The notes below the pieces were generated by a model. That model made no database searches. It was not told where the DNA came from and saw only the letters and a list, made by a program, of their open reading frames with translations. The translations under genes were made by a program, and so were the position numbers. DNA of 34,336 nucleotides from Nanobdellota archaeon (GTDB lineage Archaea; Nanobdellota; Nanobdellia; SCGC-AAA011-G17; PNOQ01). The DNA lies in NCBI GenBank assembly GCA_018829185.1, contig JAHJUI010000016.1, forward strand, positions 1 through 34,336, read 5' to 3'. Positions 25,964-34,154 of this stretch are shown here, in pieces; positions within the stretch are counted from its first letter, which is position 1; each line of letters begins with the position of its first letter.

Positions 25964-26121
25964 TTTAAGAATTTCAAAAGGAATTTTTTATTTAAACATT
26001 ATTGAGTTATAAAATACACTCCCAGACCTCTATTTCCTATGGAATCCTTTTTGTATGTTTCAAATGCAAAATTCTGAACTTACAGCCCTTGACTGCAGAT
26101 AGAAATGAACTTAATTTTTTA

Positions 26122-26156
26122 TGTTATATATATAATATAATATATAATATATAACA
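26122..26156. repeat. AT-rich inverted repeat, likely DNA unwinding element
   Basis: Arms TGTTATATAT (26122-26131) and ATATATAACA (26147-26156) flank a 15-base spacer of A and T only. It is the most easily melted stretch of the intergenic region beside cdc6 and is consistent with a DNA unwinding element of an origin. Confidence 0.6.
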
Positions 26157-26214
26157 ATAAAACTTAAAATACAAATCCCAAAAACAAAAAACAAAAACCA
26201 AGGATTCTTCAATT

Positions 26215-26232
26215 TTAGGGCTTCTACCCTAA
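26215..26232. promoter_or_regulatory. Short inverted repeat TTAGGG-N6-CCCTAA in the candidate origin
   Basis: Perfect 6-bp arms TTAGGG and CCCTAA around CTTCTA. In such an AT-rich stretch a GC-containing dyad is notable. It could be an initiator site, a protein-binding operator or a hairpin at the end of a short transcript; the sequence alone does not decide. Confidence 0.4.
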
Positions 26233-26574
26233 GATTTCAAAACAGGGTATTTTCAAGCAAATTGCCCATTTTTCGCTAAAGAAAGATAACAAATTTTCAT
26301 GAATTTTAAACTTTAGAAATATCTGGATTTAAAGTTCCTAACGCTCCAAACGCAATAATTTGAAAAATTCAAATCTCCAAAAGAAACCAAGGTGTGAGGG
26401 TCCAAGAAATATAGATATTAGAGAAAAACAAATTTCCTCAAAACTTAAAAGTTTTTCCTAAAATTTAAAGAGAACCTCTTAACTTTTAACAACCATCTTA
26501 GATAATCTCTATTTTTTCTCAGAAAACTTTATAAAGAAGTGTTCACTCTCTAAACTATCTTGGAGGCGTTAAAT

Positions 26575-31214: not shown

Positions 31215-31478
31215 ATGGTTAGACTATCAGATAAGACAACAACCCTTCTAAAAAACGATATTCTAGCTATTTTATATGAATCTTCTTTGAAACCAATGTA
31301 TACTTCCCATATTGCCGAGGAGTTAAGAAGAGACAACGAGTTCGTTCTTAAGTTATTATTAGAATTAAAAAAAGAGAGATTAGTGAAGGAAGTTACTAAA
31401 GGAAAGCGAGGAGAATATCTTGCTAGGAAAAAATGGATAATTCCTTTAGAAGCTAGACAAAGGATGGACGTTATATAA
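31215..31478 (+). CDS. Small winged-helix DNA-binding protein
   Basis: An 87-residue protein that is a single winged helix-turn-helix. KNDILAILYESSLKPMYTSH is the first helix and turn, IAEELRRDNEFVLKLLLELK the recognition helix region, and KKERLVKEVTKGKRGEYLAR the wing, with basic residues. It resembles small MarR/ArsR-like archaeal regulators. TATA-like CCTTAAATAG at about 31182-31191 lies 28 nt before the ATG, consistent with a leaderless transcript. It is followed at once by the iteron-bearing spacer before the next regulator gene, so it might act on those repeats; that is speculation. Confidence 0.7.
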   Translation: MVRLSDKTTTLLKNDILAILYESSLKPMYTSHIAEELRRDNEFVLKLLLELKKERLVKEVTKGKRGEYLARKKWIIPLEARQRMDVI

Positions 31479-31480
31479 CT

Positions 31481-31542
31481 ATTCACTCATTCACGCACAT
31501 CCTAAACACATCCTATGCACTTATTCACTCGGCTACGCACAC
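31481..31542 (+). repeat. Direct repeats (iterons) upstream of the coiled-coil/wHTH gene
   Basis: The unit TATTCACTC-N4-ACGCACA occurs twice, at 31481-31500 and 31523-31542, starts 42 bases apart (four helical turns). Between them ACATCCTA occurs twice (31498-31505 and 31509-31516). The array lies immediately upstream of a TATA-like CTATTTAAAC (31548-31557), about 27 nt before the ATG at 31582. The position is that of a regulator-binding site controlling that gene. The TATTCACTC part recurs inside the gene at 31813-31821. Confidence 0.75.
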
Positions 31543-31581: not shown

Positions 31582-32199
31582 ATGGTTGAAGACCCCATAT
31601 TTAAGGAAATAGTACGTAATTCTTTTAAGAAAGCACGAGATCACATGAATTCCCTAGAGACTCAAATAAAGGCCCAGAAAGCCGAAATTCAAGCTATTAA
31701 AACCCTTTTAGAACAGATTAAAGGACAAAGGATACCCAATTCTACAGAATTCTTACAAGAAGAGCCTTCTAAGCTAGAAATCCAAAAAAGTTCCATAGGA
31801 AATGAAGGGGTCTATTCACTCACTCACTCGGTCACTCACTCACTCACTAAGCACATAAACAACCTAAATAACCTAGAAAAAACCTTGAAAAGGGCCTTCT
31901 CAAGGCTCACAAGGCAAGAATTCTTAGTTTTCCTCACAATATATCAATTAGAGGACGAAATAAGCGAGGTTACCCACTCTCACTTAGCACAAAAACTCAA
32001 ACTTACCGAGGGCTGCATTAGAAGTTATGTAAGTAGCATAATCCGTAAAGGATTACCTCTCACTAGACAGAAAATCAACAATAAACTAACTATTTTACGC
32101 ATATCTACTGAATTTAGGGCCATGAACCTTAAACAAACTCTCACTAACATGTTTTATGACATAGATCCTAACCAAACAAACTTACTTGATAATACTTAA
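31582..32199 (+). CDS. Coiled-coil plus winged-helix DNA-binding protein (plus-strand member of a pair)
   Basis: A 205-residue protein. An N-terminal coiled coil (about 12-50, MNSLETQIKAQKAEIQAIKT) leads to a linker (about 51-98) and a C-terminal winged helix (about 100-178): LTRQEFLVFLTIYQLEDEI, HSHLAQKLKLTEGCIRSYVS as the helix-turn-helix, and a wing (RQKINNKLTILRIS). The linker includes VYSLTHSVTHSLTKH, encoded by a dense CACT repeat (31813-31856) that shares TATTCACTC and GCACA with the upstream iterons. The gene at 32289 on the opposite strand has the same architecture but a different motif. A run of eight C (31566-31573) lies between TATA box and ATG. It is probably a dimeric DNA-binding protein; its target is inferred to be its own repeats. 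Confidence 0.72.
   Translation: MVEDPIFKEIVRNSFKKARDHMNSLETQIKAQKAEIQAIKTLLEQIKGQRIPNSTEFLQEEPSKLEIQKSSIGNEGVYSLTHSVTHSLTKHINNLNNLEKTLKRAFSRLTRQEFLVFLTIYQLEDEISEVTHSHLAQKLKLTEGCIRSYVSSIIRKGLPLTRQKINNKLTILRISTEFRAMNLKQTLTNMFYDIDPNQTNLLDNT
31813..31856 (+). repeat. Intragenic CACT-rich repeat sharing the upstream iteron motif
   Basis: TATTCACTC (31813-31821) is followed by repeated CACTCACT, CGGTCACTCACT and AAGCACATA units to about 31856. The head equals the first nine bases of both upstream iterons, TCACTCGG also occurs in the second iteron, and GCACA matches their end. It encodes residues 78-92, in the linker before the winged helix. The repetition is at the DNA level: coding for it uses CTC and CAC codons otherwise uncommon in this AT-rich genome. 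Confidence 0.7.
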
Positions 32200-32288
32200 T
32201 GAACTCTCACTTTCGATTTTTACAAAAAAGGTCAATTATTAAGAATTAGGCCCCTAGAAGCCCTGTAGCCCCAGAATTCTAATTAAAA

Positions 32289-32924
32289 CTACCCTATATA
32301 ATCTCTCACTGGCACTACTTCAATACCCTCTTCTGAGCTATTCCCCCCCATATTTCCCTCAGAATCAACCCTTCCTTTAACCTTTTTTTGCCCCAATTCC
32401 TCCTTTAACTCATCGTTTAAATAGAATACTTTTGATCTGTTCTTCACACTTATCTTCTCTTTCACTTCTACACCTGCTCTTTTAATATCATTAATATGTC
32501 TCCTTACAGTCACAATACTAGACCCGACTTTATCTGCAATTACTTGATAATTTAATGGATTTTTTGATTGAAGCAACAAAAATACCACCTGTTTTTGACT
32601 CGGAGTAAGATTTTTTATCGTTTGAACGTTCATGAACGATTCTGAATGATTGAACGATTGAACGCGTTCAATCGTTGAACGCCCAACTTTAGATTTTTTA
32701 CCCTTAAGATCAAGCAACATTTGCTCTAATAGGATTAATCTTTCTTCGATTTTAGTTAATCTACCATGATGTTCTTCCTTCTTTGAATGCAAGTGATCAA
32801 TGTGACCCATAGAGTGTTCAAAATCACGTTTTATATTCGAGAAAGAAGACTTTAAACTAGAATGTAATTGGTTTATTTTCTCTTCAGAATCACCTTCTTT
32901 TTTCTTAAACCACAAGAAACCCAT
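32289..32924 (-). CDS. Coiled-coil plus winged-helix DNA-binding protein (minus-strand member of a pair)
   Basis: A 211-residue protein. The N-terminus is MGFLWFKKKEGDSEEK, similar in style to the MGFFDRFK start of the ATPase at 33435. A coiled coil follows at about 14-75 (INQLHSSLKSSFSNIKRDFE, ERLILLEQMLLDLKG), then a linker (76-105) and a winged helix (about 106-172): LTPSQKQVVFLLLQSKNPLN, YQVIADKVGSSIVTVRRHIN as helix-turn-helix, then the wing NRSKVFYLNDEL. A Gly/Ser/Glu tail follows. The linker (residues 81-102) is encoded by a cluster of TGAACG motifs. The same motif forms a palindrome just upstream of the promoter. The upstream neighbour is a broken nucleotidyltransferase whose 3' end overlaps the operator. 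Autoregulation is likely. Confidence 0.74.
   Translation of the reverse strand: MGFLWFKKKEGDSEEKINQLHSSLKSSFSNIKRDFEHSMGHIDHLHSKKEEHHGRLTKIEERLILLEQMLLDLKGKKSKVGRSTIERVQSFNHSESFMNVQTIKNLTPSQKQVVFLLLQSKNPLNYQVIADKVGSSIVTVRRHINDIKRAGVEVKEKISVKNRSKVFYLNDELKEELGQKKVKGRVDSEGNMGGNSSEEGIEVVPVRDYIG
32621..32683. repeat. Intragenic cluster of TGAACG motifs with a 24-bp palindrome
   Basis: Within about 60 bases TGAACG occurs at 32623, 32633, 32651, 32659 and 32676 on the plus strand, and its complement CGTTCA at 32627 and 32665. Bases 32653-32676 are a perfect 24-bp palindrome centred on AACGCGTT with arms AACGATTG and CAATCGTT; TGAACGTTCA (32623-32632) is another. The cluster lies inside the gene at 32289-32924, encoding the linker between its coiled coil and its winged helix. 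Confidence 0.85.
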
Positions 32925-32969
32925 ATCTAATTTTATGAAACTACTTATTATTAAAGTTTTCCATTCAAA

Positions 32970-33001
32970 TTGAACACAGTTGAACGTTCAAACATGTTCA
33001 A
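32970..33001. promoter_or_regulatory. Palindromic operator upstream of the minus-strand wHTH gene
   Basis: A perfect palindrome TTGAACGTTCAA (32980-32991) is flanked symmetrically by TTGAACA (32970-32976) and TGTTCAA (32995-33001), all centred on 32985/32986. This gives a symmetric site with four half-sites of TTGAAC. The minus-strand gene starts at 32924, and a TATA-like CTTTAATAA (complement of about 32948-32957) lies between them, so the site is just upstream of the core promoter. The same half-site recurs in the gene itself at 32621-32683. The site also covers the 3' end of the broken nucleotidyltransferase gene. Confidence 0.8.
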
Positions 33002-33358
33002 ATGAAAGACTAGGATCATAAATTACCTTCCCCATTTCGTGTAGTAAACTAGGTTCTCTTCCTTGTCCATCATCTAAAACAATACCTGTTTCATAATCAC
33101 TTTCATAATAAAATACAATATGGAATCTCCCATTTAATGACTCTAAACGTTTATTGACATCTTGTGGCAGCCCCAACGGAATACCTTCAAGGTCTAAGGG
33201 AAAACACTAGATAAATCATCTAAAATAAAAGCAAGATCTATATCCCTTCCATCACTACAATCTCCATTTAAAACAGAACCATATAGAACTATTTTAGATA
33301 TACTTTCTATTCCCTTTGTCCTCTCTACGGCCAATTCAGCTAATTTATACCTTTCCAT
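32988..33358 (-). pseudogene. Frameshifted minimal nucleotidyltransferase (MNT)
   Basis: Minus-strand reading from ATG 33358 gives a 54-residue start, MERYKLAELAVERTKGIE..., containing the MNT catalytic motif VLYGSVLNGDCSDGRDIDLA (GS then D-x-D), ending at a TAG at 33194-33196. In the adjacent frame the protein resumes as LDLEGIPLGLPQDVNKRLES and continues to 32988 with REPSLLHEMGKVIYD, the typical end of an MNT domain. Reading FP-LDLEG across the junction needs one extra T in the TTCCCTTAG stretch (about 33194-33202). So one base has been lost, either truly or by sequencing error. MNT proteins often pair with HEPN proteins as toxin-antitoxin modules; no HEPN gene is adjacent. Confidence 0.75.
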
Positions 33359-33434
33359 AACCCTTCCAAAATCTTCAATCCCTTTTAAACCTTTCTAATT
33401 ACTAAAAACTTTTAAGAATTGATTAAAGAATATT

Positions 33435-34154
33435 TTAGAATTTTCTAAAAGCTTTACTTACATTATCAGACCAGAAACCAGGCAAATCATAACTTAAAAG
33501 CCCTTCAAAATCATCACTCCAAACAAAGAAATATTTCTCTTTAACATCATCATCTTTTAAATCTTTAAAAATCTTAGAAACCCTTTCATACATATCTTTT
33601 ATGCCCTTTCTTTCAAATTTAGTTTGCAATAGCGACGGTTCCTTTAGCAAAACAATATCAGCTAATCTTAAAACATTTAAGTCAATCATAGCAGAGCTCT
33701 GAGCTATTAAAATTAAAGTTAAGTTCTTATGCCTAGCAATAGCCATTATCTTCCCAAGATCTTTACTTGATTTTTTCATTGAATCCCTTGAAGAAAAGAA
33801 TATTGCCCCCTCATCAATTAAAACAGTAGAATTAACAGGAACCTTATCTAGGCTTTCTACTTTCTTTATCCATCTTGGAAGTTTAGAATCTTCATAGCCA
33901 AGAACATAACAGTTCTGGCCAGTTTTATAATGAAATAGCTCTAAAAATCGCATTCCTAACGAACTCTTACCAGAACCCCTTCTACCAGTTAAAAGGACAA
34001 CAGTGCTATGGTTTGTTATTTGATCTAAGAATTTTTCATGAGAACCAACTTCAGATTTCTCTAAATTAAACGCTGTAAAACTTTTCTTTTTACGTTTTTC
34101 TTCTTCTCTTTTTTCAAATATCTTTTGTGGCTTAAACCTGTCAAAAAATCCCAT
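33435..34154 (-). CDS. Zot/FtsK-HerA-like P-loop ATPase
   Basis: A 239-residue cytoplasmic ATPase. A basic N-terminus (MGFFDRFKPQKIFEKREEEK, followed by RKKK) leads to Walker A LLTGRRGSGKSSLGMRF (about 53-69). The Walker B equivalent STVLIDEGAIFFSSRDSM (about 108) is followed by ALTLILIAQSSAMIDLNVLR-like sensor sequence (MAIARHKNLTLILIAQSS, about 140-157). The AIARHKNLTLILIAQ pattern is typical of Zot-like and genome-packaging ATPases of viruses and plasmids and of the FtsK-HerA superfamily. Its true job here is unknown: DNA transfer or packaging in a mobile element, or a host function shared with the neighbouring coiled-coil proteins. TATA-like TTATATAT (complement of about 34176-34183) is 26 nt before the ATG. 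The right inverted repeat begins 14 nt further upstream. Confidence 0.72.
   Translation of the reverse strand: MGFFDRFKPQKIFEKREEEKRKKKSFTAFNLEKSEVGSHEKFLDQITNHSTVVLLTGRRGSGKSSLGMRFLELFHYKTGQNCYVLGYEDSKLPRWIKKVESLDKVPVNSTVLIDEGAIFFSSRDSMKKSSKDLGKIMAIARHKNLTLILIAQSSAMIDLNVLRLADIVLLKEPSLLQTKFERKGIKDMYERVSKIFKDLKDDDVKEKYFFVWSDDFEGLLSYDLPGFWSDNVSKAFRKF

Follow-up and report, generated by a model that had tools for sequence, protein, structure and literature searches.

Site arrays and an ORB-like element within the coding sequence of two paralogous winged-helix genes near oriC: a candidate nucleoprotein hub in Woesearchaeota and Pacearchaeota

A winged helix-turn-helix (wHTH) gene of a Nanobdellota archaeon, here called X, carries the palindromic motif of its own promoter in dense copies within the codons of its interdomain linker, which raises the question of what such an arrangement is for. 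The window analysed is a stretch of 34,336 bp (contig JAHJUI010000016.1, assembly GCA_018829185.1). The initial annotation, made from these letters, had read X as a repressor binding its promoter and an intragenic operator, with a possible loop between the two. The features of X are as follows.

32289–32924, minus strand: gene X, an open reading frame of 211 aa with a coiled coil, a disordered linker and a C-terminal winged HTH
32623–32681: array inside gene X, made up of seven TGAACG/CGTTCA half-sites in linker codons
32653–32676: X-array palindrome AACGATTGAACGCGTTCAATCGTT, perfect over 24 bp as read from the sequence
32970–33001: X promoter palindrome, TTGAACA-CAG-TTGAACGTTCAA-ACA-TGTTCAA, symmetric
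32950–32962, minus strand: predicted BRE/TATA-like element of X, GGAAAACTTTAAT

The seven TGAACG copies, the 24-bp palindrome and the symmetric site just upstream of the TATA box had all been described in the initial annotation and were present, the promoter palindrome lying directly upstream of GGAAAACTTTAAT. The wHTH assignment was borne out by a Pfam HTH_11 domain at residues 110–154 (E 7.8e-07, above the gathering score). The linker was also flexible as proposed, with a pLDDT of <50 at residues 90–101 of the AlphaFold2 model, between a long helix (residues 11–79) and the wHTH. The N-terminus, MGFLWFKKK, is aromatic/hydrophobic and then basic. The window has 12 copies of TGAACG where 3.84 would be expected, a count reached in 0/100 shuffles, as the claim of a density beyond chance had implied. 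Two of the copies are at 32981–32990, in the X promoter, and the approximately three-fold excess across the window is due solely to the X-gene cluster. In the whole 826,748-bp genome, TTGAACGTTCAA was unique to the X promoter; TTGAACG had 27 copies, with 7 at gene X and the remaining 20 dispersed singly, and no second TGAACG cluster like that of X was found elsewhere in the genome. The cluster is thus confined to X. The 3' end of a small nucleotidyltransferase-like coding remnant (32988–33360, minus strand; in two frames and probably frameshifted) overlaps the X promoter palindrome.

The reading of X as a lone repressor leaves unexplained a paralogous neighbour, Y, the array and the intragenic ORB that Y carries, and a nearby oriC; Y, its array and its ORB had escaped the initial annotation. 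These features are listed below.

31582–32199, plus strand: gene Y, an open reading frame paralogous to X and convergent with it, with a coiled coil, a linker containing the ORB and direct repeats, and a wHTH
31791–31811, plus strand: ORB-like element TTCCATAGGAAATGAAGGGGT inside Y, 0 mismatches to TTCCANNGGAAANNNAGGGGT
31816–31848: Y array, TCAC direct repeats straight after the ORB
31521–31533: TTATTCACTCGGC, a copy of Y-array sequence upstream of Y, ahead of its TATA-like box
32202–32212, minus strand: AAGTGAGAGTT element, immediately beyond the Y stop codon
24758–25963, minus strand: orc1/cdc6 (Pfam Cdc6_C 1.4e-27, Cdc6_lid 4.7e-24)
25964–26559: predicted oriC of the canonical type, separating cdc6 from a PRC-barrel-like gene
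26024–26044, minus strand, and 26375–26395, plus strand: oriC ORB-like elements, flanking a stretch of up to 93% A+T

The ORB in Y was the top ORB match of the genome (0.37 expected at ≤3 mismatches) and differs at 2 positions from the Ori-Finder 2 common motif. The TCACTCACTC sequence of the Y array had no other occurrence in the genome. Further copies of AAGTGAGAGTT, with 1 mismatch each, were noted at 32136–32146 and 31975–31985, both on the minus strand; this element has a fixed strand and place at the Y/X junctions of many genomes, though the X and Y motifs vary. An 87-aa wHTH gene adjoining Y (31215–31478, plus strand) lies close to X/Y in many genomes and possibly belongs to the same module.

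X homologues were identified in 66/99 relatives of the order (E ≤ 0.001), mostly as a single copy, and Y homologues in 82/99, including 44/47 high-quality genomes. The profile HMMs of X and Y cross-match, and the two proteins, both modelled with AlphaFold2, are built alike: a coil bearing an SFxxxKxD motif at the N-terminus leads through a linker to the wHTH at the C-terminus. A hydrophobic or aromatic and then basic N-terminus was present in 57/63 X proteins versus 3 Y proteins. A class-wide search found Y in 149/234 genomes, where strong matches beyond the order came from a single large family and a few further ones. The adjacent pair is kept across Woesearchaeota and Pacearchaeota, the named relatives of the window's cdc6. 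Four genomes of one family keep X and have no recognisable Y or ORB at the locus. At L007, L010, L011, L013 and L048, likewise of one family, X is present without a recognised Y or ORB, and several dispersed AAGTGAGAGTT copies on one strand, approximately 70–150 bp apart, lie downstream of X.

Second X/Y pairs of the Pacearchaeota type were observed in two Woesearchaeota-type bins (L152, G008:C12; L153, G026:C57). They were considered as plasmid copies and rejected, as their contigs also contain other members of the conserved gene cluster (g134 or the 87-aa wHTH), which makes bin contamination by a Pacearchaeota-like genome likelier.

The ORB was found in Y in 42/42 loci of the first set, within the called frame in 41; in L014 it lies in the same open frame, upstream of a start called too late. 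Three mismatches were present in 2/41 Y loci. The element usually encodes SSxGNxG, with the ORB codons TCC in 38/41 loci (background 0.107, P 1e-33), GGA in 40/41 (background 0.28, P 3e-21) and GGG in 40/41 (background 0.24, P 8e-24). A different reading frame carries the best ORB at 6 loci, where the encoded peptide is VPQExxG. The common archaeal ORB motif is TCCA[CG]T[TG]GAAA[TC][GA]AAGGGGT (PMC4164010), and the Y ORB matches it exactly in L045, L046 and L092. A held-out set of 16 loci from outside the order was picked by the Y profile alone; the ORB was present in Y at 0–1 mismatch in 16/16, direct repeats came after it, and X was the neighbouring gene. The more distant Y-like proteins of L105–L108 were without an ORB.

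The gene order DP2-DP1-cdc6, PRC, Lon, ArgRS, Y, X recurs widely, and cdc6 was present in the stretch of approximately 20 kb covered at each locus in 14/20 loci and in 14/16 of the held-out loci. The Y ORB is 5.4 kb from oriC in the window and 1.4–8 kb from it in most other genomes. Inverted ORBs are the norm at origins. Each of the 28 cdc6-PRC intergenic regions examined contained ORB-like elements together with a 60-bp stretch of 88–100% A+T, and the ORBs were oppositely oriented in 26/28, whereas Y has one ORB, within its coding sequence. An ordinary oriC is thus present at cdc6-PRC, to which the Y ORB comes in addition. The GC skew of the complete genome G038, taken in 20 samples of 20 kb, gave no clear origin signal.

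We considered whether the X/Y locus could itself be a replication origin with self-encoded initiators in the style of lambda O, RepA_N or WhiP, perhaps a replicon that was captured next to the ancestral oriC. In the genes of phage lambda O and of RepA_N plasmid initiators, iterons are located between two protein domains. Similarly, the X and Y arrays lie in disordered linkers between domains as iteron-like repeats in a wHTH gene, the Y ORB is nearer to consensus than the oriC ORBs, and some members gave matches to phage replication protein O profiles and to DnaD_N. These matches were weak (PHROG O-like 0.00099; TIGR01610 9.3e-4 in 1/41 Y proteins) and typical of wHTH domains. Unlike the phage and plasmid genes, X and Y are chromosomal, form two paralogues and are tied to Orc1/Cdc6 and oriC. 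A canonical oriC with an AT-rich stretch is already present 1.4–8 kb away, and the Y ORB is single. Furthermore, Y-based searches of genome contigs and viral contigs, with patterns reaching close relatives only, found no plasmid or viral copies. A second origin is therefore, in our view, improbable.

The position of the X array depends on gene order. Where X and Y are convergent, the array is within the X linker (36/39 loci). Where they are in tandem, with X downstream of Y in the same direction, it is in the intergenic gap upstream of X (19/24), and the X linker is plain, being enriched in 3/24 loci. The array itself is thus the conserved feature. The Y array was in the Y linker in 51/58 loci and in the coding sequence beyond nt 420 in 1/58. 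The X sites are palindromic and lineage-dependent, including GAACGTTC, GTTTAAAC, CAGCTG, CGTCGACG, ACGCGT and others, and the motifs of different genomes include TGAACG, GTTTGGAC and CGTCGACG. The Y sites are short direct repeats, by lineage TCAC, TCAA, TCAT, GCAA, GACA, CGAG and others.

It is possible in principle that such repeats arise from selection on the peptide, or from simple-repeat slippage such as tetranucleotide phase variation. Across 13 close relatives, the X linkers carry the motif in five of the six frame/strand combinations, the sixth of which would be a stop codon. Together with the ORB in two frames, this indicates a constraint on the DNA and not on the peptide, as had been claimed from the density of sites in a flexible linker, and peptide-level selection was rejected on this basis. 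Perfect tetranucleotide runs of at least 12 nt were present in the Y arrays of 34/56 loci versus 1.7% of control windows, as slippage would predict; however, several Y arrays are interrupted or have 10–11-bp periods, the Y frames are open, and the same motifs are found at promoters. We thus regard this origin of the repeats as highly improbable and disfavour it.

The motif of each linker agrees with that of its own promoter. In a Markov-normalised permutation test, the X linker motif had a mean z of 5.51 in the promoter of its own genome and 2.42 in the promoters of other genomes (P 0.0002), and the Y linker motif had a mean z of 5.38 in its own upstream region and 0.41 in those of other genomes (P 0.0002), these P-values being indicative as the genomes are phylogenetically related and were treated as independent. 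Crossed controls were not significant (P 0.13 and 0.12). An earlier version of the permutation was discarded because it was confounded by composition, with two of its three controls significant too. The co-variation across homologues that the initial annotation had looked to as a check was thus found. Taken individually, the own-promoter motif was significant in 13/35 convergent X loci and 19/51 Y loci, counted among loci with a linker motif. In L005–L014, the linker contains 6–12 TGAACG copies and the 300 bp upstream of X contain none. Of the repressor with a looped intragenic operator, the selection at the level of the DNA, the confinement of the sites and the co-variation stood; the loop did not hold as a general explanation, since own-promoter enrichment in just 13/35 loci, and its absence in L005–L014, indicate that a loop between promoter and linker is not a conserved feature.

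Another reading treats X and Y as transcription factors of an ordinary, autoregulated kind, with promoter and intragenic sites that serve solely their own expression as operators, roadblocks or titration sites, and takes the proximity to the origin as inherited synteny. The confinement of the arrays to their own genes, the agreement of linker and promoter motifs and the X site abutting the BRE/TATA-like element in the window are all consistent with it. However, it does not explain the ORB in the Y of every relative examined, nor the many relatives with 6–12 linker sites and none at the promoter, and a factor whose sites are confined to the gene encoding it has no obvious function. On balance, we consider ordinary autoregulated factors an unlikely explanation, if less so than a second origin.

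We favour the reading, at slightly better than an even chance, that the X/Y locus is an origin-proximal nucleoprotein hub that is self-organised by X, Y and Orc1/Cdc6 and is also autoregulated. The gene pair, the arrays, the ORB, the selection at DNA level, the linker-promoter agreement and the proximity to oriC are present in the sequence. From these we infer binding, autoregulation, recruitment of Orc1/Cdc6, membrane contact and a role in replication or segregation. X and Y would each probably bind their own array, X at palindromes and Y at short direct repeats, with the arrays inside, or directly upstream of, the genes encoding their putative binders. Orc1/Cdc6 probably binds the consensus ORB in Y, adjoining the Y array, and the locus would thereby communicate with the real oriC beside cdc6. 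Motif copies at the promoters would provide negative feedback on X and on Y, and the hydrophobic-basic N-terminus of X may touch the membrane. Through the coiled coils and the X N-terminus, the bound proteins would most likely connect the freshly replicated origin region with the control of initiation and with anchoring or segregation. Counting against the hub are the single ORB of Y, the generic nature of the wHTH matches, the four genomes of one family with X but no recognisable Y or ORB, the GC skew of G038, which did not point to an origin, synteny that could be inherited without function, and significance tests in which related genomes counted as independent. A bolder proposal, which we rate somewhat short of even, is that the locus is an origin-linked centromere or licensing centre of Woesearchaeota and Pacearchaeota, with arrays and an Orc1/Cdc6 box overprinted on the linker codons of two paralogous winged-helix proteins, and with array and specificity being jointly re-invented in each lineage.

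X and Y were searched against domain and structure databases. Foldseek and Pfam gave generic wHTH matches alone, and the PDB fold search gave a MarR/ArsR-type wHTH; neither protein is therefore assigned to the WhiP, lambda O, RepA_N or ParB families. The parS-ParB, Noc, TubR-tubC and SegB systems comprise dedicated proteins on site clusters that are origin-proximal or self-encoded, often with autoregulation, and Noc has an N-terminal membrane helix. The X/Y site clusters are likewise origin-proximal and self-encoded. SegB is a ribbon-helix-helix protein (PMC7333895), compared with the wHTH of X and Y. No ParB/Spo0J domain was matched among the Pfam hits of X and Y, and no ParA/TubZ-type partner was recognised next to them in the window. 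The datA and DARS loci of E. coli bind the initiator near, but outside, oriC, as the Y ORB is a candidate to do; unlike them, the single Y ORB is joined to arrays whose putative binders are other proteins. With respect to archaeal ORB/Orc1-Cdc6 origins of the oriC1 type, the TCCAnnGGAAAnnnAGGGGT element of Y, with its G-string and its location near cdc6, fits the published motif (PMC4164010), but it is single, in coding sequence and beside repeats for another putative DNA-binding protein, with an inverted-ORB oriC nearby. WhiP is a winged-helix protein encoded beside Sulfolobus oriC3 (PMC4010727, PMC12141716), as the winged-helix genes X and Y are beside an origin; compared by description, it differs in that oriC3 is without an ORB, and in that X and Y have N-terminal coiled coils and sites in their own genes.

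Iterons within initiator genes are already known on their own, as are ORBs, WhiP and partition sites close to origins. In the open-access literature, we found no earlier account, for these archaea, of a conserved chromosomal gene pair next to oriC that is overprinted with an ORB and arrays. Little seems to be described of chromosome initiation, its regulation and segregation in DPANN archaea, most of which are uncultured, and the X/Y locus is a conserved entry point to these questions that can be tested in two large groups. With it comes a chromosomal example of cis-acting DNA, an initiator box together with site arrays, that selection at the DNA level has overprinted on protein linkers. Its protein specificities and DNA motifs, which co-vary, form a natural series useful for decoding winged-helix recognition. 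Furthermore, Orc1/Cdc6 boxes can escape origin finders that are limited to intergenic DNA.

Two further proteins were noted. A Zot/packaging-like P-loop ATPase with the N-terminus MGFFDRFK is encoded at 33435–34154 (minus strand) of the window. It was rejected as a functional partner, being scattered among the relatives (21/99), generally on contigs other than that of X, and unlinked to X/Y. At L154:1323–1647 (minus strand; contig C20 of G000), a Y-like N-terminal coil, VKYSFALVRSDVLALQNDI, is joined to a small C-terminal domain that has Cys/His residues, and the coil might act as a docking module common to different proteins.
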